From Odontesthes bonariensis (taxonomy: Eukaryota; Chordata; Actinopteri; Atheriniformes; Atherinopsidae): 64,000 nt of DNA. A program made the position numbers and the translations under genes. The stretch spans positions 10,444,743 to 10,508,742 of the forward strand of contig NC_134510.1 in assembly GCF_027942865.1 (NCBI RefSeq), in the 5' to 3' direction. Below, piece after piece: positions 19,715 to 63,600 of this stretch; position 1 is the stretch's first letter; every line of letters starts with the position of its first letter. The notes beneath the pieces were generated by a model. It had not been told where the DNA came from. It searched no databases and saw nothing but the letters and a program-made list of their open reading frames with translations.

Positions 19715-20012
19715 GCTGGGTGCTGTGGCGCGCGCCTGTAATCCAAGCTACCGGGAGGCTGAGGCTGGAGGATCGCTTGGGCTCAGGAGCTCTGAGCTGC
19801 AGTGGGCTATGCCGATCGGGTGTCCGCACTAAGCTCGGTACGGATATGGTGCTCCTGGGGGAGCCCGGGACCACCAGGTCGTCTAAGGAGGGGAGAACAG
19901 GCCCAGGTCGGAAACGGAGCAGGTCAAAGCCCCCGTGCCGCTCAGTAGTGGGATCGCACCTGTGATTAGACGCAGCAGTGCAGCCTGAGTCATACAGCGG
20001 GACCCAGTCTTT
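19715..20012 (+). ncRNA. rn7sl: 7SL / SRP RNA, full length
   Basis: The ~298-nt sequence aligns end to end with vertebrate 7SL RNA, the scaffold of the signal recognition particle that halts and targets secretory ribosomes to the ER. It starts GCTGGGTGCTGTGGCGCG, keeps the GGGAGGCTGAGG Alu-domain segment, GCCGATCGGGTGTCCGCACT, the helix-6 GGGACCACCAGG loop, and the helix-8 CCAGGTCGGAAACGGAGCAG symmetric loop, and ends in a pol III TTTTT terminator at 20,010-20,014. The upstream region, shared with the other full copies, has a CRE-like TGATGACATCA near -55 and an A/T-rich GATAAAC near -20, comparable in placement to known 7SL upstream elements. The first bases differ from the two minus-strand copies (GCTGGG against GCCGGG). 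It could be a functional gene or a recent pseudocopy. Confidence 0.9.
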
Positions 20013-21580
20013 TTACACTCTTTGTTCTCTCCAACAAAATACTGGGACAACACACACGCTCCAACATCACCTCTTTACACGTTACAGCAGTTTCTCTATC
20101 TTCTCTTTTCCACTGAAAAGCACAGCTGTTTCTTGGACCTACAGCGCCCCCACCTGGAGAAGACGAGCAATGACCATCAGCCACATCACTCACCGCTGCT
20201 TCACAGATACACTCTGCTCCATCACTCATTCAATCAAGCTGCTGCTGTCACATCACACACACTTTGAGGAGACTTTTACTGCTTTGATTAATTGAATACG
20301 TCCACAGAGATTCTTTTGGGGTGACAATGAGACACACACAACATAAATATGCAAACATTTTAGACTGTCTATCGTGTGACCTTCTCTACAGTTCTTGGAT
20401 GTTTGTTAGATTGTAATATCAGCACTTGACATCTCCGAGTGTGTGCAACACTCAGACTATAAGACAGTGATGCAGATGAACTGCAAGAATTCTTACTGTT
20501 AAACAGCAGAAGTGTAAAGTGAAACATGCTGTGTGTGTTACTGCTCATGAGTATTATTTCATGTCTTCTGCTGTGACAGAGGTCGTAATAATTCTGTGAA
20601 TTACAACATTCGCTTTGCTCCAATCGTGCAGTTGTGTGGCATCATCACACTTCCACTGATTTTTATTTGAAAATGTGACATGTGGTTTTATCACAAGTGC
20701 TTCTACTTCTGCTCAGTTAACATGTTAAACATGATCTTTTTAAAACTACCTGATGTGTAATTTAAAGTGTGCGTTCTTTATCTCAACAGTTAGGTGTTAG
20801 AAATGAGCAGTTTCTCCTCTCTCAGGTAGATGTGGTATTTATCAAAATCCCTTCCTATAATTGTACATTTTAGTTAATAGAGTCAAATAATCTGAGATGG
20901 AGACAGGATTCTAAATTGTTAGTGTTGCTGGGTTTCAGGGTGAGAAATGAATTACACGTTAAAATGAAATGAGGGCTGAGTCTTTGTACTGACGAACAGA
21001 ACTGGGAGTTCTATAGTTCACTTCCTGAAAAATACTAAAGAACAAACATGAAGATGGATCACTGAAGGTTTCTTTATACCTGTAATGGAAAACAAACACA
21101 GTTTTGTTGCTTCATATTTGTTTTATCATCAATTTAACTGAAAAAAGAAGATTTTTTTTTCTGTATAAGATACTTAAAAAGAAAGAAACTGAAACATTTC
21201 CACTCAAATTCATATAAACTATAAACTGTAAGTTATCGTCTGACTCTGTCTGAATATTATTCATGTAAGAGAAGGAGTGGATCAAACACTGTAAACAAAT
21301 ACAACACCACAATGTTAAAACATATTTTCATGAAAGACAGTTGAGGAAATCTCATCTGTTTCACTCATCGTGTAAAAGTTCTATTATAAAATGATGAAGC
21401 TCAAAGGGAAACATGAAACTGTACAAATGGAACACAGAGATTCTCCTGTATGGATGCTGCTCCATTCATCAAGTTTCCAAAAACTGAGCTGGGATTTTCT
21501 GCAGGAATGAAAACGATCCAAACACTTGTCAGTCTTTGCCACTCGATGCCGCTGTAGTGTTTGATGACATCAAAATGTCA

Positions 21581-28240: not shown

Positions 28241-33246
<5,006 letters not shown>

Positions 33247-35152: not shown

Positions 35153-38100
35153 ATGTCAGCAAGAAGAAGAGAAACGGCAGAGCAGAGGAGGAGGGAGGAT
35201 TTATCAGAGGAGGAAAAGAAGAGTGCTGAAGATGAGGACTTTGAGGAAGCCATGAAGGCGGCTGCCTCCTCCACCCAGAGGAAACTTAAGCCGCCTGAGC
35301 AGCAAATCCTACTGAACACCCCAGAGACGGTGGATGACTTCCTGAGGAACTTCCTCCGCAGAGCCGGCCTGAATCGGACTCTTGGCTGCTTTGAGGCAGA
35401 GTGGTATGGCTCCACTCAGAAACTCCTGACCAGAGGTGGGTAGTAACGAGTTACATTTACTTGAGTAAGTTCTTGAAAAAAATATACTTCTAGGAGTAGT
35501 TTTAAATCTCTATACTTTTTACTTTTACTTGAGTAGATGTGTGCAGCAGAAACTGTCCTCTTACTCCGCTACATTAGGCTACAATGAGCTGGTTACTTTT
35601 CTTCTTACCTCTTTGGTATTCTACGCCTCATTATTTTTATCCCCCCGCGTACGCCTCATTTTAATGTTTTATTCTGACAGAGAGAGAGACTTCCACCAAA
35701 GGCTCTACCACCTGACTGTGTTTCACCAATCAGACGTAGCCGTGCAGTCTGGTCACGTGACCGTACTCGATCTCAGCGGCGGGACGGGTTAGCTTTAGCA
35801 TTAGCAGTCGTAGCAAACAAACAAAGAAACAGATGAAAAATGTCAGAATCAACGGTGGGAAATGAAGACGCAGACGAGGCCTCATACTGAAAGCATGTTT
35901 ACCTTACAAAGAGTGAGAAACAGCAGCTACATTATGTGTCTTCTGTGTCAACCAAAACAAACGCACATTTCAGCAGAAACTCCCCCATGGATAGGTGAAT
36001 GTTTGTTTTTTAGGTTACATATGGGTTACATATGTTTTAAACATTTCCTCTCTTTTTTATTGAAGTACTTGAATTTACCTGGATTATTTCAATTTAAGCT
36101 ATTTTGTAATTAATTAATTCATTTTAATTTATTTTATCAATGCATGAACTCTAATTTGCCTAAAGATGATTATTTAGTATTTTTGTCTGTCTGATTGAAT
36201 GCTTGTGTTAACAAATAAATCAGACGTTACTCTACAGTTACTCAGTACTTGAGTAGTTTTTTCACCAAGCACTTTCTTACTCTTACTCAAGTAATTTTTT
36301 GGATGACTACTTTTTACTTTTACCTGAGTCATATTATTCTGAAGTAACAGTACTTTTACTTGAGTAAAATTTTCTCTGCTCCTGACAAAAAACCCTGTCG
36401 ACCGTAGAGACGGCAGGAACGGGCGTCTTCTTCATCCCTGATGCTCTCACACACGGGCAGCTCCTCCAGCTCGAGCTGGACTCGGTCCACAGAGAGACGG
36501 ACCAGCTCAGGCAGGAGGTGCAGGCGACAGCGGAGAGCCTGGCGAGGACACAAAGGGAGAGGGATTTCCATCGGCTGCAGTATCAGCGAGTCGCTGAGCA
36601 GAAAAACGAGCTGGTTAGCAACTTCAAACAGCTGAGGGAACATTTGGAGTCTTATAAGCTGGTGCTGAGGCAGCTGGACGACAAATACCAAACAGCTCTG
36701 AGGCAGAAAGGGCTCATCAGTTTACAAAAGGACCGAGTTCAAAAGTCCACAGACCCAGACCCAGGACTGGATCAGGAAAAAGCCAAAGAGAAGAAGGAGA
36801 GCACTGAGAGGGCAGCAAAGAGCTCCCCAAAGGACTCAGAGTTTCCCGCCTGCAGCAGGCTGCAGAGACCCCAGCAGGCCCAGGGGAAATCTCTGAAAGG
36901 TCAAAACTCCTTCAGGTTGTCAGGCTCCATCCGAGCACACGAGCTGCCAATCAGCTGCATCGCCCTCCATCCCAGGAAACTCCTCCTGGCGTCTGCCAGC
37001 GACGACCGCAGCTGGAGGCTGTGGGCTCTCCCAACCAATGAAGAGAAGGTAACGCAGCAGGGCTTCTGTGGTTGGGCCAATCAGAGGGGTCAGATTTAAC
37101 CTCATAGGCCGTCTAAACCACCAGCCTTTAAAAGTTATTACTAGGGCTGGGCAACGATTACGATTTTTAATCTAATTAATCGCATGATTTCCCTGATTAA
37201 TCACGATTAATCGCATTTGTACGCAGAATCCAAAAATGAATCCAGAAGTAGTGTATAGCTTTAACATTTAGTTTTATTTTAAATGTACTGCCATATGAAT
37301 GAAAGCACCATAACATTTGTTGTGCAAACACACTTTTAACATCAGCATCTTTCTGTAGTTTTTATGTAGAAGCCTCGCTCCACTGTCTGTTTCCTTGAAT
37401 GACTTGCTGCTATCAGTTGTGTGTTTTGCCTTTAAGTGATATTTTAGACTGGAACTACTACAGTGATAAGACGTGCTTTTATGTTGAAACAAGTAAAACA
37501 GGAAGTAGCGCCGGTTAGCTCCGTTAGCTTCACACAGAAACCGAGGAGGAACTGCTAGTTTATCTTTATTTTATCACTCCATGCTTCGTGGTGTTTGCTG
37601 TAACTGTGTGAACGTGATGCATTCAACAGACTTTTATAATAATAAAACCTGCGTTAATGCGCCATAAAATATTTATCGGCACGAGTTAACGCGATAATAA
37701 CGAGTTAACTCGCCCAGCCCTAGTTATTACCAAAGTGGAACAACTGCAATCAAGTGCTTTTGACTAAAGTCAGAGTCAAATTTATTTGTAGCACATTTCA
37801 TGTACAAAACAATTAAAAGTGCTTCTCATAAAGTAAAAGCATTGCAGCAGGGAGTGTAAGAAGCATTAAAAATACATAAAAGAATATAAAGAGAAACAAA
37901 TAAAGTAATTAAAATTATTAAAAACGAGCAACAGTCCAGATAAGTTCAAAGATATCGTGCAGATTTCATGCATAGACACATGAGAACAGAAATGTTTTTA
38001 ACCTGGATTTAAAAATGTCTACATTTGGTGAAAGTTTAATCTCCACTGGCAGTTTGTTCCACTTGTTTGCAGCATAACAGCTAAATGCTGCTTCTCCATG

Positions 38101-41100
38101 TTTAGTCTGGACTCTGGACTGGACCAGCTGACCTGAGTCCTTGGATCTAAGAGCTCTGCTGGGTTTATATTCTCTGAACATATCACAGATGTATTTTGGG
38201 CCTAAACCGTTCTGGGATTTGTAAACCATCAGCAGACTTTTAAAATCTATTCTGTGACTGACTGGAAGCCAGAGTAAAGATTTTAAAACTGCTGTGATGT
38301 GTTCAGATCTCTTAGTCCGGGTTAAAACTCTAGCAGCAGCGTTCTGGATGAGCTGCAGATGTTTAATGCTCTTTTAAACTACTGGAGATCAGTGGTTTCT
38401 GCAGGACTTATTCACTCAGAAACTTAGTTATAGCTTTGTACCCTGAAGCTGCACAACATTTCTCTGTCACCACCTTGCTTGAGACTACATTCCACATCTG
38501 ATAGTGACACATATTCATATGGTGCCTTAGGGTATTGGTGTGATTAGTAAGATCTGAGATCTATATCGGATCTATCAAAAGAAGATGCTCCTTCGACTAA
38601 GCAGTGCTTAGTCTCCCCTCCTCGGTTTGAACACACACCCAAATGCTTCTTACTTTCTTAACTCCTATGAAAGGTTACACTTTTAATACAGATTCTGCAT
38701 TTAGTTTTTGTGAGATAAACACAGTGAAATGTGAGTTATGGTGAACTGTCATGTGCTGCTGCCAGGTTGGTCACATGGTGCTGTCAGGTGAGGGTCACTC
38801 TGACTGGCTGTCGGGTTGCAGTTTTCACCCTGATGGATCCAAACTGGCAACTACCAGCGGAGACACAACAGTAAGTTTGTCCTTGTGAGACCACCACACA
38901 CAGCGGGACTCATGCACGGGTGGGGACGAGTGTTGTGACTGGACACCACCTGCAGTTAATACACAATGAGAAATAAAACATACAATAGTGGTCGTTCCTT
39001 GTCTCCTGGACCACATTAAAGAACAGTATCAGCTTTACAGTTGGAGCTAGTGAAAATATGTGCACACAGAGACATGCTTTATATGGGGTCAGTTCATAGA
39101 AAAGTAAAGAATGTGGGGTGTAACATGCAAACGGGGTAGTGGGCTGCACGTGGGCTGCACGTGGGCTGCATGTGTGCAACGTTTCATCAGTCAGTGGGGT
39201 CACATGGCACTCAAAGGATCAGATTATTGGCTAAATTACAATTAGACTGAGTTATTAAGTTCATGTAAACACCTTAATCTGACTAAGAATTGGATCAGAT
39301 CAGATTAAGACCCCGAGATAACTGGGTTGAAAGTCACTCTAAACCTGCTTGTAGACGCTGAAGCACGTGTTGAATTAGGCTGTGTTTGAAACCGCCTACT
39401 TCTCCTACTACTCCCACTACTCCTACTAACTTTAACTTTTTTTAAGTTCCCGGATGCATACTAGATTCTCCGAAATGTTGGGTATGCATCGTGAGGTTAC
39501 TACTCATACTCAAACTACCCAAGATGCAACGTAACGTGACGTCACCGATCGTCATTTCCTGTCAAAACGGCAGTTTCAAGCTAGCTACAACGAGGGTACG
39601 TTCACTTCCTGTTTTCAGAACAAAAGCACCAATTGTATGGTAATGGCTTTCCCTATGATAAAAGGTAACGGGTGTTTTATTTTGTGAAAATAACCGGAAG
39701 TGCGTTACTCACTGCGGCTAGCTTTAGTGGCGCCGAATTCGTTGGAACAAAATTGTAAATAGCCGGTATTTTGTCAGGTTTTCAACACATTGGGGATCTA
39801 AACGACTACTTTCTCACCTGAAAATGTTTCAAACGTTTCTAAAGTTTACAGAGTTTAGAGCTTAAGAGAAATCAGCTTCAGGCCGGCTGATTTCAGCTCG
39901 GACAGGAGCGAAATGCATTGTGGGTAAACGCTCTGCATATTGTCTGATTGATGAGTATGCAGTATGTAGTATGTAGTACAGAGTTGTTTTTGACAACCAT
40001 CTTAGATTTAGTCTTAGTCTTAGTCTTTTGGACTAAAATGCTTATTAGTTTTAGTCACATTTTAGTCACTTCTATATGTGATAGTTTTAGTCCAGTTTTA
40101 GTCGACGAAAAGTCAAAAAAGTTTTAGTCTAGTTTTAGTAAAAAAAAAAGTATAGTATAGTCTTAACAAATTAATTTAGGTCAATAAATATTGGAGATTG
40201 CTGTTGGGCAGTGTCACACATAAGTTGTGAAAATAGCAGCAGATCTATAAGTTCAACACATTGTAAGCTTGCAGATCTGCTTTTTTCACAAATAATAACA
40301 ATAATAAAGGAATGGTTTTAGACATATAAGGTTTACACCCAACGGCAAATTTCTGATCTAAGGATTGTGTATTACATTCAGATAAAGTGGTAACAGTGGA
40401 ATCAATGTTCATTACTCCAAAAAAGCCAAAAAACAAAAACATTCTACTTCAGCAATTGTGGCTTTATTTCTCAGAATTAAAGTACAATGAACATACACAT
40501 GCCCCAAAAAAATGAGGATAGATGTAAATATGCTGGGATAGATGACTGTGCGCTTATTGTAAGTCGCTTTGGTAAAAAGCGTCTGCAAAATGACCGTAAT
40601 GTAATGTAATGTAATGTAATGTTGTTATTTGGATCACCAGGTTTCTCTTTAGTAGTTTTGGTCTCTGGGATCTGGTTGAGGAAAAAACAAAGAAGGGATA
40701 CAATTACTCTTTCTCTGTATACAACGTACACCTCCTTTAAAGATTTACAGGTGAATACAAAACAATCAAATGTATACCATAAAAATACTCAAAATACTAC
40801 CGTGTTAAGAAAATAGTATGGTCTTAACTATCAAACAAGCAGAACAAAAATACATAGCTTATTAACTGACCCTGTACTAAAGCTTTCTGATTTTTCATTC
40901 TGTACTGTGCGTGTGTCCCAACTTTACTGTAAGCGCACTAAACGCACAGGTCCTGGTTAGGGCTGCACAACGTCACTTGTGCCTTTTAGGCAAAAGCTAG
41001 CAGACTCTACGTATAACAGTAACTCGACCTGTTTAACATATCAAGTTACGTGCTGACAGAACGTACACACAAAGAGATAACCACACCGTCACTGAATGTA

Positions 41101-43855
41101 AACATGGCTAAACATGCTGCTAAAGTAACACACACATAATGAATTGACGTTAGCGTAACAAAAGCTAACTTTAGCCTGAAGTTAGCAGCCCATTTGCGCC
41201 AGGAGTATGTGGAAAACGTACTAATGTATTAGCTTACTATGAAATTGATCGATTATGTTAACAGCATTTGTAACTTACCTTCGAAAAAATATCCTTGTGG
41301 CGAGCCTTAAAGTGCCGCTTAAGGTTGGTCGTATTTTTTCCGCCTACTTTTTGGCCACATTTGTCACCGTCTTCCTTCACAATACACTCTGTTTTATTAT
41401 CTGCTGTAGGCAGCAGCAGATACTTTTTAGGTTTTAATTGACACACACAATAAGCAGAAATGTCATGCATTTTAAACGTCTGACAGATCACCCACTAACA
41501 TTTTCGTCCATTTTCGTCAACGAAAACTCACACACGTCTCGTCATGTTTTCGTCATCAGAGAGCTATGTTTATCTCGTCACCGTCTCGTTATCGTCATGA
41601 AAAAAAGTGGCGTCAACGAAATGATTTCGTCATTGTCATCGTTGACGAAAACAACACTGATGTAGTATGTAGTAGGCGGTTTCGAACACAACCTTAGACT
41701 TTGCGTTCTGCGCATGCTCCAGATGTCTTCCCGGGGTCGTGACCCGGAAGTCAAAGGAGAAGATATTACTAGTGATGTTACCTCCAACACCGAAGCGTCA
41801 AAGCTCGCTTCAAACTCGACAGGGTAGTTATGGCGCTTGCTTCATGTGACGTCACTGATGACGTTTGAACACTTCACTGCTTCATTCAGATCGAGTCAGC
41901 TGACTGCTTCGAGTTGATGGGCGGAGCTTTGAACATTTGCCGCGATTCAGTGTATTCAAGATGGCCGAAGCCCCGGTTCATGTCCCCGTTCTACACGTAT
42001 AATACGTTACGAACAGCTCTCGTTTTTTGATAATCGGAGTTTTGGATTATTCTGTCATGGAGCAACCATCGAGGAAGCGTTCCCAAGTGTGGGAATATTT
42101 CGAGCCAAACAGTTCCTGGTCACACCAGCCTCCTCTGTTCCCTGTGACAGAGTATTTTCCAAAGCTGGAGAAATTGTCTAAAAAAAAAAAAGAAACCATT
42201 TGAGCCCTTCCACTGAGAAAAAACTAGTTTTCTTGAATAAAAACACCTGAAGTAACACAAGCACCCTCTTTATTACACCAAGCACACTCCCAAAGAAAAC
42301 ATGAATGACAAACCAAACATTTTTCACATTGTTTTTAAATGATTATTGTTTCATGGGTAAATTACTCAATCTTTAATGAGGTACTAAAAACACACATGTA
42401 CAACACACATACCTACATAGATAAGTGTTATTATAGTGTTATTATAATACACAAGAGATGCATCACATTCGCAGGGCTTCATTTGGTGCAACAATCGCTA
42501 CTGCCAGTAGATGTCACCCAAGGGAATTGAACGAAGCTTCAGGTAGTGAACCACTTTATGACACAATGCTTCAAAAAGCCTCATTTTGCCATCACTAGAG
42601 ATTACTGTTGTTGTCGCCGTCAGAAAGAAACAAACAACGCGATGGAGAATGCTCCGTTGTGCATCGCGTTTGTGCAACAAGCAGCTCATCACAGACCAAA
42701 TGTAGAGGGACGTAGCTTCATCTTGCTCTGCGTTCTCCATCTTTCTCCAATGCCTGAGTTTGTTGTTGTTGTTGGTGGTGGTGAAGAGGTCAACAGGAAG
42801 TGGCTCTATTAGCAATAGTTGGAATGGGTTCAGCGCCACCTATCACACCGGGGTATGACACGCTTTGTGCCTCTGATCCCATTCATTCACCGCCATATAT
42901 CCTAGGTGAATTACCCTTGCTCAGCTCATTCTGATTGTAATGTAGCCAATAATCCGATCCTTTCAGTGCCATGTGACCCCACTGAGTGGCTCTTGCACAG
43001 TTGTAACTTTAACCCGATCTAAAGGCTCTCCTGGACCACATTTTGGTGGGATTACACACACACACATACAGATTAACAAGATGAAATCATTGCAGCCATA
43101 CTGTTATAACTGGTAATGATCAGATCTCCTTAATCAGAATTAAAGCCTGCTTCAGAGGTTGTTCTTTTTGTATTTTTATTCCACCCTCCTCCTTCCTCCT
43201 CTTGCAGGTGCGGCTCTGGGATTTCTCTCGTGGCAGCTGTGTGCTGACTCTGTCCGGTCACACTCGGCCCACCTGGGGCTGCTCCTTCCACTCCTGCGGC
43301 CACTTCCTGGCTTCCTGCTCTGCCGACCGAACCGCCAAGCTGTGGGACCTGAGCAGCCGCCGCTGCAGACTCACCCTCCGGTGTCACACTGCTGCCGTCA
43401 GCAGCGTCTGTTTCCTGCCCTCCTCAAACCTTCTGCTCACCTGCTCCGCTGATAAAACTCTGGTCCTCTGGGACGCCAGGCGGGGCGTAGGCGCCGCCAC
43501 TTTACGTGGACACCAGCACCCCTGCAACCACGCTGCCTTCAGCTTTGAGACGCATCTCGTGGCCTCGTGCGACTCTGGTGGGATCATCAACCTGTGGGAC
43601 GTCAGGAAATGTGCGTCGCCGATGGCTGCTGTCGATGCCGGACCTCTGGGAGCCAATCAGGTGGCGTTCGGCCAATCGGGGAGGCTGCTGGGAGTGTCCA
43701 GCAGCGATGGCGTGGTGAGGCTGATAGATACGGACTGTTGCACAGCGAGCAGCCTGGTGGGGCACAGCAGCAGTGTGCAGAGTGTGACGTTTGACCACAT
43801 GGGGGAGACTCTGCTGTCGGCTGGGAGCGACGGGCTGATCAACATCTGGGAGTGA
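35153..43855 (+). CDS. spag16: SPAG16 / PF20, axonemal WD40 protein, 4 exons
   Basis: SPAG16 (Chlamydomonas PF20) sits on the central-pair apparatus of motile cilia and sperm flagella. Exons: 35153-35435, 36408-37048, 38766-38870, 43208-43855; phases agree and give 558 residues (mammalian long form about 630). Order: charged N terminus; a LisH-like segment DDFLRNFLRRAGLNRTLGCF at about residues 60-80; a coiled coil at about 100-195 containing RERDFHRLQYQRV; a Lys/Glu-rich linker; then about seven WD40 repeats from residue 268 to the end, with HSDWLSGCSFHPDG, SGDTTVRLWD, CSADRTAKLWD, SADKTLVLWD and final SDGLINIWE. This matches SPAG16 domain by domain. Six WD repeats lie in one uninterrupted final exon. 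Intron 1 is a hAT element; introns 2 and 3 are packed with transposons. Confidence 0.92.
35431..36378. mobile_element. hAT transposon forming spag16 intron 1
   Basis: The element starts CAGAGGTGGG and ends TTTTCTCTG (5-bp CAGAG terminal inverted repeat) and is flanked on both sides by CTCCTGAC (35,423-35,430 and 36,379-36,386), a perfect 8-bp target duplication as made by hAT transposases. The left duplication is codons Leu-Leu-Thr of spag16. The splice donor GTGGGT (35,436) is inside the element's own left end; the acceptor lies 29 nt past its right end. Interior is ACTTGAGTAA-rich sequence with no intact frame. Confidence 0.88.
37142..37722. mobile_element. Non-autonomous hAT with BED-finger remnant, spag16 intron 2
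   Basis: TAGGGCTGGGC at the left end and GCCCAGCCCTA at the right, flanked by the perfect 8-bp duplication GTTATTAC (37,134-37,141; 37,723-37,730). The minus strand at 37,492-37,274 encodes SSSSLKYHLKAKHTTDSSKS, part of a BED zinc finger, as in the related copy at 45.9 kb. Confidence 0.92.
37777..38376 (-). mobile_element. L2 LINE 3' fragment in spag16 intron 2
   Basis: Same subfamily as the 17.5-kb element. Frame 38,229-37,966 (MVYKSQNGLGPKY ... FKSRLKTFLFSCVYA) is intact here across the position where the other copy has a stop. It is 5'-truncated at about 38,376. Confidence 0.88.
39378..41693. mobile_element. Harbinger-like MITE (3-bp TTA duplication), split by hAT
   Basis: GGCTGTGTTTGAAACCGCC at the left and GGCGGTTTCGAACACAACC at the right, flanked by TTA on both sides (39,375-39,377; 41,694-41,696), as expected for PIF/Harbinger. 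Without the inner insertion it is about 630 bp. A (GTAGTAT)-rich tract marks the insertion point. Confidence 0.7.
39979..41659 (-). mobile_element. hAT transposon with BED-finger exon, nested
   Basis: CAGAGTTGTTTTTGAC left, GACGAAAACAACACTG right, flanked by perfect 8-bp ATGTAGTA duplications (39,971-39,978; 41,660-41,667). The minus frame 41,491-41,258 encodes a BED zinc finger (CGQKVGGKNTTNLKRHFKAR then H). The catalytic part is absent, so it is non-autonomous. A short LINE-like tail with (TAATG)n lies at about 40,555-40,620. Confidence 0.88.
41770..42597 (+). mobile_element. Non-autonomous hAT with dimerisation-domain remnant
   Basis: TAGTGATG left and CATCACTA right; flanks GATATTAC and GAGATTAC match at 7 of 8. 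On plus at about 42,120-42,180 a frame reads ASSVPCDRVFSKAGEIV before a stop, the hAT C-terminal dimerisation motif. The middle of the transposase is deleted. Confidence 0.8.
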
Positions 43856-44046
43856 CGGGCTGATGATCAACATCTGGGAGCGACGGGCTGATGATCAACA
43901 TCTGGGAGTGACGGGCTGATGATCAACATCTGGGAGCGACGGGCTGATGATCAACATCTGAGAGTGACGGGCTGATCAACATCTGGGAGTGACGGGCTGA
44001 TCAACATCTGGGAGCGACGGGCTGATGATCAACATCTGGGAGTGAC
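43828..44046. repeat. Minisatellite spanning the spag16 stop codon and 3' UTR
   Basis: Eight tandem units of GACGGGCTGATGATCAACAT plus CTGGGAGY, 28 bp each or 25 bp where one GAT is missing. The first unit is the last coding segment (DGLINIWE); the stop codon is formed by the unit junction GAG|TGAC. Units alternate GAGT and GAGC endings, so only some junctions carry a TGA in the spag16 frame. Confidence 0.95.
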
Positions 44047-44083
44047 GGGGTTCTCATTTTCCATTTCAATGCTGTGATCACAG

Positions 44084-49216: not shown

Positions 49217-49400
49217 GGGAGAATGAGACGAGTCCATTGTTATGTTAGCGGCTATGTGAGTGAGACTGCATTTGCACACAGATAAGCTACGTAGCAGACT
49301 TTTGTGGTGATTATTGTATATTTATTGATTTATTGATACTGTAGTCATGTGACTATAGTGACATTGCCATACCTTAGCTTTGGCTCAATTGACGCCAATG

Positions 49401-49661
49401 CGGGAGGCTGAGGCTGGTGGATCGCTTGAGCTCAGGAGCTCTGAGCTGCAGTGGACTACGCCGATCGGATGTCTGTCCTAAGCTCGGTACCGATATGGTT
49501 CTCCTGGGGGAGCCCGGGACCACCAGGTCGTCTAAGGAGGGGAGAACCGGCCCAGGTCGGAAACGGAGCAGGTCAAAGCCCCCGTGCTGCTCAGTAGTGG
49601 GATCGCACCTGTGATTAGACGCTGCAGTGCAGCCTGAGTCATACAGCGGGACCCAGTCTTT
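49401..49661 (+). pseudogene. 7SL RNA copy lacking its first ~38 nt
   Basis: From CGGGAGGCTGAGG to the TTTTT terminator the sequence is a 7SL copy with GGACCACCAGG and GGTCGGAAACGGAGCAGG retained. The 5' part of the Alu domain, including the start and A-box region, is replaced by the right end of a hAT-like element. It also carries extra substitutions (GGATGTCTGTCC for GGGTGTCCGCAC). Most likely non-functional. Confidence 0.88.
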
Positions 49662-49663
49662 TT

Positions 49664-54124: not shown

Positions 54125-54361
54125 GACAGCAGCAGCTTGATTGAATTAGTGATGGAGCAGAGTGTATCTGTGAAGCAGCGGTGAGTGATGTGGCTGATGG
54201 TCGTTGCTCGTCTTCTCCAGGTGGGGGCGCTGCAGGTCCAAGAAACAGCTGTGCTTTTCAATGGAAAAGAGAAGATAGAGAAACTGCTGTAACGTGTAAA
54301 GAGGTGATGTTGGAGCGTGTGTGTTGTCCCAGTATTTTGTTGGAGAGAACAAAGAGTGTAA

Positions 54362-54659
54362 AAAGACTGGGTCCCGCTGTATGACTCAGGCTGCACTGCA
54401 GCGTCTAATCACAGGTGCGATCCCACTACTGAGCGGCACGGGGGCTTTGACCTGCTCCGTTTCCGACCTGGGCCGGTTCTCCCCTCCTTAGACGACCTGG
54501 TGGTCCCGGGCTCCCCCAGGAGCACCATATCGGTACCGAGCTTAGTGCAGACACCCGATCGGCATAGCCCACTGCAGCTCAGAGCTCCTGAGCTCAAGCG
54601 ATCCACCAGCCTCAGCCTCCCGGTAGCTTGGATTACAGGCGCGCGCCACAGCACCCGGC
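54362..54659 (-). ncRNA. rn7sl: 7SL / SRP RNA, full length
   Basis: 298 nt from GCCGGGTGCTGTGGCGCG to a T5 terminator. The Alu-domain, GGGACCACCAGG helix-6 loop and helix-8 GGTCGGAAACGGAGCAGG are intact. The 5' flank beyond -35 is interrupted by a hAT element at 54,700, so distal promoter elements (the CRE-like site) are displaced by 1 kb; the proximal GATAAAC motif remains. Confidence 0.9.
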
Positions 54660-55713: not shown

Positions 55714-57900
55714 TTTTGAAGTAAACAACATTTTGATGTCATCAAACACAACAGCGGCATCGAGCAGCAAAGACTGACAAGTGTTTGGATCGTTTTCATT
55801 CCTGCAGAAAATCCCAGCTCAGTTTTTGGAAACTTGATGAATGGAGCAGCATCCATACAGGAGAATCTCTGTGTTCCATTTGTACAGTTTCATGTTTCCC
55901 TTTGAGCTTCATCATTTTATAATAGAACTTTTACACAATGAGTGAAACAGATGAGATTTCCTCAACTGTCTTTCATGAAAATATGTTTTAACATTGTGTT
56001 GTTGTATATGTTTACAGTGTTTGATCCACTCCTTCTCTTACATGAATAATATTCAGACAGAGTCAGACGATGACTTACAGTTTATAGTTTATATGAATTT
56101 GAGTGGAAATGTTTCAGTTTCTCCTTTTTATGTATCTAATACAGAAAAAAATCTAAATTCAAGTTCTTTTTTTAGTTAAATTGATGCTAAAACAAATATG
56201 AAGCAACAAAACTGTGTTTGTTTTCCATTACAGGTATAAAGAAACCTTCAGTGATCCATCTTCATGTTTGTTCTTTAGTATTTTACAGGAAGTGAACTAT
56301 AGAACTCCCAGTTCTGTTCGTCAATACAAAGACTCAGCCCTCATTTCATTTTAACATGTAATTCATTTCTCACCCTGAAACCCAGCGACACTAACAATTT
56401 AGAATCCTGTCTCCATCTCAGATTATTTGACTCTATTAACTAAAATGTACAATTATAGGAAGGGATTTTGATAAATACCACATCTACCTGAGAGAGGAGA
56501 AACTGCTCATTTCTAACACCTAACTGTTGAGATAAAGAACGCACACTTTAAATTACACATCAGCTTGTTTTAAAAAGATCATGTTTAACATGTTAACTGA
56601 GCAGAAGTAGAAGCACTTGTGATAAAACCACATGTCACCTCTGCAGAAACAGTCAGAGACATTTTCAAATAAAAATCTGTGTAAGTGTGATGATGCCACA
56701 CAACTGCACGATTGGAGCAAAGCGAATGTTGTAATTCACAGAATTAGTACGACCTCTGTCACAGCAGAAGACATGAAATAATACTCATGAGCACAACACA
56801 CACAGCATGTTTCACTTTACACTTCTGCTGTTTAACAGTAAGAATTCTTGCAGTTCATCTGCATCACTGTCTTATAGTCTGAGTGTTGCACACACTCGGA
56901 GATGTCAAGTGCTGATTTTACAATCTAACAAACATCCAAGAACTGTAGAGAAGGTCACACGATAGACAGTCTAAAATGTTTGCATATTTATGTTGTGTGT
57001 GTCTCATTGTCACCCCAAAAGAATCTCTGTGGACGTATTCAATTAATCAAACCAGTAAAAGTCTCCTCAAAGTGTGTGTGATGTGACAGCAGCAGCTTGA
57101 TTGAATGAGTGATAGAGCAGAGTGTATCTGTGAAGCAGCGGTGAGTGATGTGGCTGATGGTCGTTGCTCGTCTTCTCCAGGTGGGGGCGCTGCAGGTCCA
57201 AGAAACAGCTGTGCTTTTCAATGGAAAAGAGAAGATAGAGAAACTGCTGTAACGTGTAAAGAGGTGATGTTGGAGCGTGTGTGTTGTCCCAGTATTTTGT
57301 TGGAGAGAACAAAGAGTGTAAAAAGACTGGGTCCCGCTGTATGACTCAGGCTGCACTGCAGCGTCTAATCACAGGTGCGATCCCACTACTGAGCGGCACG
57401 GGGGCTTTGACCTGCTCCGTTTCCGACCTGGGCCGGTTCTCCCCTCCTTAGACGACCTGGTGGTCCCAGGCTCCCCCAGGAGCACCATATCAGTACCGAG
57501 CTTAGTGCGGACACCCGATCGTCATAGCCCACTGCAGCTCAGAGCTCCTGAGCTCAAGCGATCCACCAGCCTCAGCCTCCCGGTAGCTTGGATTACAGGC
57601 GCGCGCCACAGCACCCGGCGAGAGACTCTCATGTTTATCAGACTTTCAGCTTGTTGAAGTAAACAACATTTTAATGTCATCAAACACTACAGCGGCATCG
57701 AGCAGCAAAGACTGACAAGTGTTTGGATCGTTTTCATTCCTGCAGAAAATCCCAGCTCAGTTTTTGGAAACTTGATGAATGGAGCAGCATCCATACAGGA
57801 GAATCTCTGTGTTCCATTTGTACAGTTTCATGTTTCCCTTTCAGCTTCATCATTTTATAATAGAGCTTTTACATTTATTTACTTTCTTTTTTAAATGTTT
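55714..57900 (-). repeat. 7SL repeat unit, inverted right locus
   Basis: On minus this runs upstream flank (57,870-57,620), 7SL, downstream flank (57,321-56,330) and the next unit's upstream flank (56,330-55,722), in the same order as the left locus. With the hAT removed, the two minus-strand 7SL genes are about 1.95 kb apart. Confidence 0.85.
57322..57619 (-). ncRNA. rn7sl: 7SL / SRP RNA, full length
   Basis: 298 nt, GCCGGGTGCTGTGGCGCG start and T5 terminator. Differs from its neighbour at only a few sites (for example ATGACGATCGGG where the other has ATGCCGATCGGG). Its upstream flank is uninterrupted and holds TGATGACAT and GATAAACAT motifs, making this the best candidate for an active gene on the minus strand. 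Confidence 0.92.
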
Positions 57901-61632: not shown

Positions 61633-63600
61633 CAGACCTGGGCATTGTACGGCCCCCGGGCCGCATACGGCCCTTTGGTTGACTCTGACCGGCCCGTGTA
61701 AGGTTAATTGGAAATTACAAAATAAACATATTTTCTTATTTTACGTGATGCATGGACTGAAGCTGCATTTTATTTTTATTTTGAAGTTGTTTTTTATTCA
61801 CGTACATGATGATGTAAAACGTATATCGAGACATGCACATGATTGGATCGTTGTCACTAGCAAGTCACAAGACGACTTTAGCCCTCAGAAATGTCTGCTC
61901 GTGCTAAAAAAAGAAAGGTAGATGCCGAATGCAGGGTTTTCAACAAAAATTGGACTGCTAAGTATTTATTTACTGAAGTCAGAGGTAAAGCCGTGTGTTT
62001 AGTTTGCGGGGAGCAGATCGTCGTGTTTAAGGACTACAATTTGAGTCAGCATTAGGAGACGAAACACGCGGAGAAATTCAAGAACGTGACTGATGCTGAA
62101 AGGGCGCGGACATCGGAAGCTTTGCTAGCTAAACTGCAAAAGCAGCAAGGCTTTTTTGCCAAGCTTCACACATCCAGGGATGCAGCAACCAAGACCAGCT
62201 TTGTGATATCCCACAAAATCGCTAAAAACAGTAAGCCATTCTCGGAGGAGGAGTTTATCAAAGAGTGCTTGGTGGACTCTGCAACACTAATATGCCCTGA
62301 ACAAAAAGAAGCATTTGAGAAAGTCCCGCTCTCCAGGCGAACCGTGACGAGAAGGGTCGAGGACATATCGGGGAATCTGGAGCTTCAGCTGCAACGTGAA
62401 GTGGCAACTTTTGACTTTTTCTCCTTGGCTTTGGACGAAAGCTGTGATGTCCGTGACACAGCCCAGTTACTCGTATTTGTCCGCGGGATAACGTCGGACT
62501 TCAAGATTACGGAGGAGCTGGCAGCAATGCAGTCGCTGAAAGGGACGACTACAGGGAGCGATCTCTTCACGGAGGTAAATGCGTGCATGGACACACTGGG
62601 ACTGAAATGGGACAGACTGGCAAGTGTCACAACGGACGGTTGTCCAAATCTTACAGGGAAAAATGTGGGACTTTTAAAACGTATGCAAGATAAAGTGACT
62701 GAAATCGACACAGATCAGAAATTGGTATTTTTGCATTGTATTATACACCAACATGTGTTGTGCAAGTCACTGCTAAAAATGAACCATGTTATTGATGTTG
62801 TTACTAAAATAGTAAACTTCATCAGGGCACGGGCATTGAATCACAGACAGTTTGTTGCACTTTTGGAGGACCATGAGTCTGAGCATAGTGACATCGGCTA
62901 CCACACAGCTGTCAGATGGCTCAGCCTGGGCAAAGTGCTAAAAAGAGTTTGGGACCTGAAAACAGAGATTCGAGAGTTTTGTCAGATAAAAGGCAAAGAC
63001 ATCCCAGAGCTCTCAGATGAGAACTGTATGGCAGATTTTGCATTTGCTGTTGATGTGACTGCACTGATGAATGAACTGAACACCAAATTGCAAGGCAGGG
63101 GCCTTTTTGTTCATGAAATGCAAACCCTGGTGAAGGCTTTCATGAGAAAGATGCTGTTTCTTTCAAGCCAAGTGGAGAGCAACAATCTCACTCACGTGCA
63201 AACCCTGAAAGAAGTCACACCATCAGCTGATCACCTCCACAGGTACTCATCCATGTTAGGAGCATTGCATTGTGAGTTTTTAAGGAGATTTGAAGATCTC
63301 AGAACAATCGAGGATGAAAAGCTGCTGGAACAACCCCCAACAATCAACATGTCTGATACTAGTAATTCTAGTAGCGAAGCCAGCAGTTTGGCAGACCTGG
63401 ACAGCTTCTTCACGGCAAATTTCGATCCGAATATTGTTGATGACAATGAAGAGCCTGAAGAAGAAACCGAGGAGGGATTGGGGCTACAACCATACAGGTT
63501 CGAGCCAGCCATTGCCAGTGACAGTGGGTCGGAGTCCGAGTCCGAGTGCAGTGGGGACGATGATGGTGATTTTGGTCGTCTTCAGAATGCCGATTGGTGA
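61633..63600 (+). mobile_element. hAT element fused to a P2X7-like repeat segment
   Basis: Starts CAGACCTGGGCATTG followed by GGCCCCCGGGCCGC, the usual left end of a common vertebrate hAT family. The right terminus of that hAT was not found before the P2X7-like segment begins at about 63,350. Confidence 0.65.
61891..63600 (+). pseudogene. hAT transposase (GTF2IRD2-like) with P2X7-like C terminus
   Basis: ATG 61,891 opens MSARAKKRKVDAECRVFNKN and a BED-like finger (CLVCGEQ ... LSQH) broken by an in-frame TAG at 62,053-62,055 (Tyr in relatives), then 504 further codons in the same frame from 62,086. Motifs TFDFFSLALDESCDV, VTTDGCPNLTG and HCIIHQHVLC are the hAT catalytic region resembling the transposase-derived part of GTF2IRD2-type proteins. 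Near residue 420 after the stop the hAT homology ends (FLRRFEDLRTIE) and a different module starts, [20 protein letters not shown] to LGLQPYRFEP, ending RLQNADW, like the start of the P2X7 intracellular-domain proteins spread by fish repeats. A donor (GATTG|GTGAGC) coincides with the final TGA. Confidence 0.78.

Follow-up and report, generated by a model that had tools for sequence, protein, structure and literature searches.

A Tol2-like hAT element inserted into a spag16 exon very probably became the first intron of the gene in Odontesthes bonariensis

In the South American silverside fish Odontesthes bonariensis, intron 1 of the cilium gene spag16 very probably arose from a hAT transposon that inserted into an exon, the tip of the element providing the splice donor and the old exon providing the acceptor side. 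We reached this reading by comparing a 64,000-nt stretch of genomic DNA (hereafter "the window") with the proteins and contigs of related fishes. An earlier note had proposed an exon insertion followed by splicing and drift of the remaining stub, and this course of events is supported both by relatives that lack the intron and by the coding match of the stub.

Once joined, the four coding exons of spag16 (Table 1) form a 558-aa open frame that is letter-for-letter equal to the NCBI spag16 protein of O. bonariensis (P0001), which was found by a search across 5.8 billion proteins. The junction between exons 1 and 2 (35,435/36,408) is the same in P0001, an annotated NCBI model whose supporting evidence is not visible. 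Of 33 Pfam matches for P0001, the 25 listed are all to WD40 or beta-propeller families, and the solved chains of SPAG16 and Pf20 can be aligned to either side of the junction region. The gene as a whole (35,153-43,855) has four coding exons only, two of them of about 645 nt; mammalian SPAG16 has many introns, and this difference suggests older intron losses in spag16. Two further observations concern the same gene. A 28-bp tandem repeat (8.5 copies, 43,821-44,049) begins in the last spag16 codons, from which it seems to be built, and extends past the stop codon into 3' flanking sequence. Within intron 2, the segment 37,141-37,723 has inverted ends (CTAGGGCTGGGC / GCCCAGCCCTAG) with TTATTA on both sides, and looks like a second DNA transposon.

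Table 1. Coordinates of spag16 coding exons, intron 1 and the parts of the inserted element in the window
Feature	Position	Strand	Remarks
spag16 exon 1 (coding part)	35153..35435	+	ATG-started open frame; last 5 nt CAGAG (35,431-35,435) are transposon
Left target-site duplication CTCCTGAC	35423..35430	+	Codes Leu-Leu-(Thr); exact copy of 36,379-36,386
Non-autonomous hAT element, Tol2-like, 948 bp	35431..36378	+	CAGAG...CTCTG; 8-bp duplication; 5-bp inverted tips
spag16 intron 1, 972 nt	35436..36407	+	GT-AG; same junction in P0001
5' splice site GTGGGT	35436..35441	+	Element bases 6-11; best U1 pairing locally
Right target-site duplication CTCCTGAC	36379..36386	+	Intronic today; exact copy of the left one
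CTGAC, branch-point-like yTnAy motif	36382..36386	+	In right duplication; A at 36,385; presumed function
Former coding stub, 21 nt	36387..36407	+	Intron end; AG acceptor at 36,406-36,407
spag16 exon 2	36408..37048	+	Matches P0001 and relatives
spag16 exon 3	38766..38870	+	P0001
spag16 exon 4 with stop codon	43208..43855	+	P0001

Intron 1 consists of 943 nt of the element, the 8 nt of the right duplication and the 21 nt of the stub, in agreement with the earlier description of it as almost entirely one hAT element, and the boundaries given for that element hold. Four features are shared by hAT transposons, namely inverted repeats, subterminal repeats, 8-bp duplications and a transposase gene of ~600-800 aa (PMC4890040), and the element displays the first three of them. 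The two copies of the duplication, which had been called perfect, are indeed identical at both ends with zero mismatches, and eight bases would agree fully by chance at two fixed ends with a probability of about 1.5e-5. The exact inverted ends are short, at 5 bp only (CAGAG/CTCTG). The motif TTACTTGAGTA is found in four exact copies in subterminal position at both ends of the element: three of them, at 35,457, 35,525 and 36,356, share a strand, and the fourth, at 36,284, is on the minus strand; 0.09 occurrences are expected in the whole window, and all four window matches sit inside the element. No frame of at least 150 aa, and hence no transposase frame, was detected in the element, which therefore represents a non-autonomous copy. 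No second copy was identified within the 64-kb window, and the 18-base tip of the element had no match in a scan against viral contigs.

The element resembles Tol2 and Tgf2 in its tips and repeats, and we provisionally refer to it as Tol2-like. The printed Tol2 tips are CAGAGGTGTAAAGTACTTGA and CAGAGGTGTAAAAAGTACTC, starting with CAGAGGTG, and the printed Tgf2 tips likewise carry CAGAGGTG, with repeats resembling those of the spag16 element. Set against these tips and their TACTTGAGTA-type subterminal repeats, the 5' tip of the element is alike at 8 of 8 bases, while at its 3' tip only the first five bases (CAGAG) agree with CAGAGGTG, and the element holds no transposase by which to place it. 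At the position of the splice donor, the element has GAG/GTGGGT with a U1 pairing energy of -9.7 kcal/mol, versus a weak -5.3 kcal/mol for the GAG/GTGTAA in the printed tips of Tol2 and Tgf2.

Both flanks of the element carry coding information. The left duplication, which had been read as Leu-Leu-Thr, is coding, with the refinement that its Thr codon is finished by the first base of the element. On the right, the 21 nt reported between duplication and acceptor are all there, and translation confirmed the claim that this stub is shifted by one base and becomes open with one A fewer. Read unchanged, the duplication and the following 21 nt give LLTKNPVDRR; with one A fewer they give LLTKTLSTVETAGTGVFFIP, and P0002, a contig open reading frame (ORF) from a close relative, has LLAETLSTTETAETGIFFIP. 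Likewise, the stub minus one A, preceded by the last bases of the duplication, reads TKTLSTV, compared to AETLSTT in P0002. Shuffled versions of the stub scored as well in 34 of 20,000 cases when any single-base deletion was permitted. With the left copy of the duplication coding and the stub encoding residues that are missing from Odontesthes, the insertion point falls inside coding sequence and the stub is evidently of exonic origin.

The length of the protein is consistent with the same event. The element lies in a linker between two conserved blocks, which measures 19 aa in Odontesthes, as against 23 in Leuresthes and 24 in both P0002 and Menidia. The loss of 20 ancestral exon bases and the gain of 5 transposon bases amount to -15 nt, i.e. 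five codons in frame, which is the exact linker difference between Odontesthes and P0002. The insertion, its duplication and this in-frame arithmetic are all apparent from the sequence. Across 145 proteins, a search pattern measured linkers of 7 to 35 aa in 127 and gave no measurement in 18, and this range suggests that the place tolerates length change.

The donor had been placed inside the terminal repeat of the element: it is element-borne, but it starts at base 6, directly internal to the exact 5-bp repeat rather than within it, and the five element bases in front of it (CAGAG) are kept in the exon and are coding. Its pairing energy ranks first among the 82 GT sites between 35,160 and 37,060 and is attained by 29 of the 7,530 GT sites on both strands of the window. 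At the other end, the candidate branch A of CTGAC lies 22 nt before the end of the intron, and the acceptor is the first AG after this motif; the 20 nt between the presumed branch A and the AG are half pyrimidine only, which makes for a weak tract. We predict that the spliceosome uses this pair of sites (35,436/36,407) with CTGAC as a likely branch site, in which case the element would have given the donor and the intron length, and the old exon the branch site and the acceptor.

Splicing need not be efficient, and we considered whether the insertion could instead be a null or hypomorphic allele, perhaps polymorphic, whose annotated intron would be the construct of a gene predictor. The weak pyrimidine tract would be compatible with such an allele, as would the in-frame stops encountered if the element is retained (the frame then ends after 96 codons) and the fact that the insertion is known from one O. 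bonariensis assembly. However, the 558-aa frame is otherwise undamaged, no repair is needed to keep the junction in frame, and the donor scores within the top 0.4% of the window's GT sites. In addition, the stub is out of frame while the exons kept theirs, as expected for a standing intron, and we regard an inefficiently spliced allele as unlikely. Less probable again is the removal of the element by another splice pair, for instance the same donor with an acceptor at 36,416, which would make the protein three codons shorter. We tried 255 combinations of GT and AG near the site. A complete open frame results from 8 of them, which include the proposed pair and two others with its donor, their acceptors being at 36,416 and 36,494. 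The proposed pair nevertheless combines the top donor score with the longest protein, its acceptor at 36,407 is both the first AG past CTGAC and the junction of the NCBI protein, and the alternatives cut more protein, which led us to set the other pairs aside.

If intron 1 derives from an exon insertion, relatives should lack it and read straight through the site, a test that the earlier note had set in advance. Three protein searches, with 120 of 197, 1 of 1 and 120 of 164 matches listed, gave 50 unnamed proteins among the matches listed, of which 44, all contig ORFs, were examined. The six long ones left out (P0114, P0115, P0116, P0118, P0120 and P0142) all span the site and also hold the WD-repeat continuation; they are uninformative on introns because they may be cDNA. 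Among the matches listed, each of the 44 contig ORFs crosses the site and can be aligned before and after the junction without a change of frame, although they do not stand for 44 species and some are closely related to one another. The end of exon 2 is reached by 42 of these 44 listed ORFs, with tails past it of at least 4 residues in 38 of the 42 and of two residues, which prove little, in the other 4. None of the 42 tails, again among the matches listed, contains the WD-repeat continuation, which indicates unspliced DNA, and hence that exons 1 and 2 are a single exon in these sequences. The intron is therefore absent from unspliced contigs of relatives, including one from the sister lineage of Odontesthes: P0002, the closest contig ORF among the matches listed (85% identity across the aligned region; its longest contig has 2,052 bases), is one of the 38.

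This placement of P0002 derives from a tree of 19 proteins, in which P0002 and Leuresthes pair with support of 99/95 and are joined by Odontesthes (96/91), and these three group with Menidia (97/97). In Leuresthes tenuis, a member of the same subfamily, the protein reads LLAETLTMETADTG where Odontesthes has LLT-R-ETAGTG, without the element-derived change; the L. tenuis and Menidia sequences are continuous over the site, as known from protein rather than exon structure. When further carriers were sought with the 96-aa exon 1 end that includes element sequence, the one match among three candidates, P0121, turned out to read through, so that no second carrier was found, and no intron at the same position in a species without the element was seen among the relatives examined. 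The intronless state of P0002, together with its position in the tree, suggests that the intron was gained on the Odontesthes branch. That an older intron stood here, was entered or mostly replaced by the hAT element and was then lost by the relatives is hardly credible and was rejected, since, although intron losses probably did occur in spag16 given its few exons, one duplication copy is coding and the stub encodes residues of the relatives, leaving the insertion point exonic on both sides, and the examined contigs, P0002 included, read through.

Taken together, we propose that, once the Leuresthes line had branched off, a non-autonomous Tol2-like hAT element entered spag16 in sense orientation in the Odontesthes lineage. 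Its target would have been the then-single first coding exon, within the variable-length linker between the two conserved blocks. The 5' tip (CAGAG/GTGGGT) would have provided a strong 5' splice site, and the exon just downstream may already have had a usable 3' side, consisting of the CTGAC that the target duplication includes and the first AG beyond it. With a donor in the tip and an existing 3' side, the spliceosome could remove the element along with 20 nt of old exon, and splicing may have been functional from the start. Five nucleotides of transposon would have been left behind, for a net change of -15 nt and five codons lost from a length-tolerant linker. The 20-nt stub, intronic and unconstrained, would afterwards have gained an A in its homopolymer.

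Other features of the window lie outside this gene. Matches to the metazoan signal recognition particle RNA, all well above the gathering score, were identified at 19,715-20,013 (+), 49,394-49,662 (+), 54,361-54,659 (-) and 57,321-57,619 (-). A 514-aa open frame at 62,056-63,600 gave the impression of a transposase-derived sequence, and no Pfam family was assigned to it at an E-value of 0.001. An uninterrupted 336-aa frame spans 28,241-29,251 (-), which we take to be alpha-tubulin-like.

Insertions of the maize hAT elements Ds and Ds1 into exons are reportedly spliced as introns, going by the titles of reports by Dennis (1988), Wessler (1991) and Giroux (1994). As judged by these titles, the likeness is that of a non-autonomous hAT element which acts as an intron when located in an exon. 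The maize Ds cases are mutant alleles in a plant, whereas the spag16 intron evolved in a vertebrate, and relatives show the state without it. A recent gain of exonic introns by transposon-like insertion is also described in teleosts, where introns 3 and 5 of notothenioid slc26a2 are traced to unclassified transposon-like elements (PMC12357937). These are distinguished by 4-nt direct repeats and tips of the form tgt...aca, as opposed to a hAT element with an 8-bp duplication in spag16. According to the same text, the splice sites of slc26a2 intron 3 (gt and ag both) lie in direct and inverted repeats, such that the repeats give both sites, while the spag16 element gives the donor only and the acceptor comes from the old exon (PMC12357937).

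Many introner families resemble DNA transposons, carry duplications and terminal repeats, and create introns (PMC9860276). These families make many introns per genome while spag16 is one case, and that survey saw no evidence for such a pattern in vertebrates (PMC9860276). The spag16 intron also resembles products of intronization, of which three are counted among 342 intron gains in human genes (PMC12124190), in that 20 nt of old exon from a variable segment turned intronic and were lost from the protein; it differs in that a transposon contributed the donor and almost the entire intron length. A published table names Oryza, Drosophila, Oikopleura and Zea for intron gain by transposon insertion. 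For vertebrates, a study of fish serpins calls intron gain very rare and its mechanisms largely unknown, and notes that shared sequences of the new introns were not detectable by the authors (PMC2746811); many gains are reported elsewhere for placental mammals (PMC3257199) and for human genes (342 gains; PMC12124190). Within the open-licence literature on intron gain, judged by titles and abstract openings of the matches listed, we found no hAT-derived vertebrate intron, and a literature search on spag16 introns in teleosts gave a single review on sperm.

Few vertebrate intron gains show how they happened, and the transposon route is rarely resolved. Intron 1 of spag16 is a clean and unusually complete new case of a known mechanism, most of whose steps are readable in both duplications, the donor of the element, the old-exon acceptor side, the coding relic and an intronless sister lineage. 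With a strong donor five bases inside the left tip, a sense insertion into an exon would need only a downstream branch site and an AG. It is conceivable, albeit rather improbable, that a Tol2-like family carrying such a ready-made donor has made several introns in silversides and may thus represent an introner-like process in vertebrates, and the tip of the element could be traced through silverside genomes.
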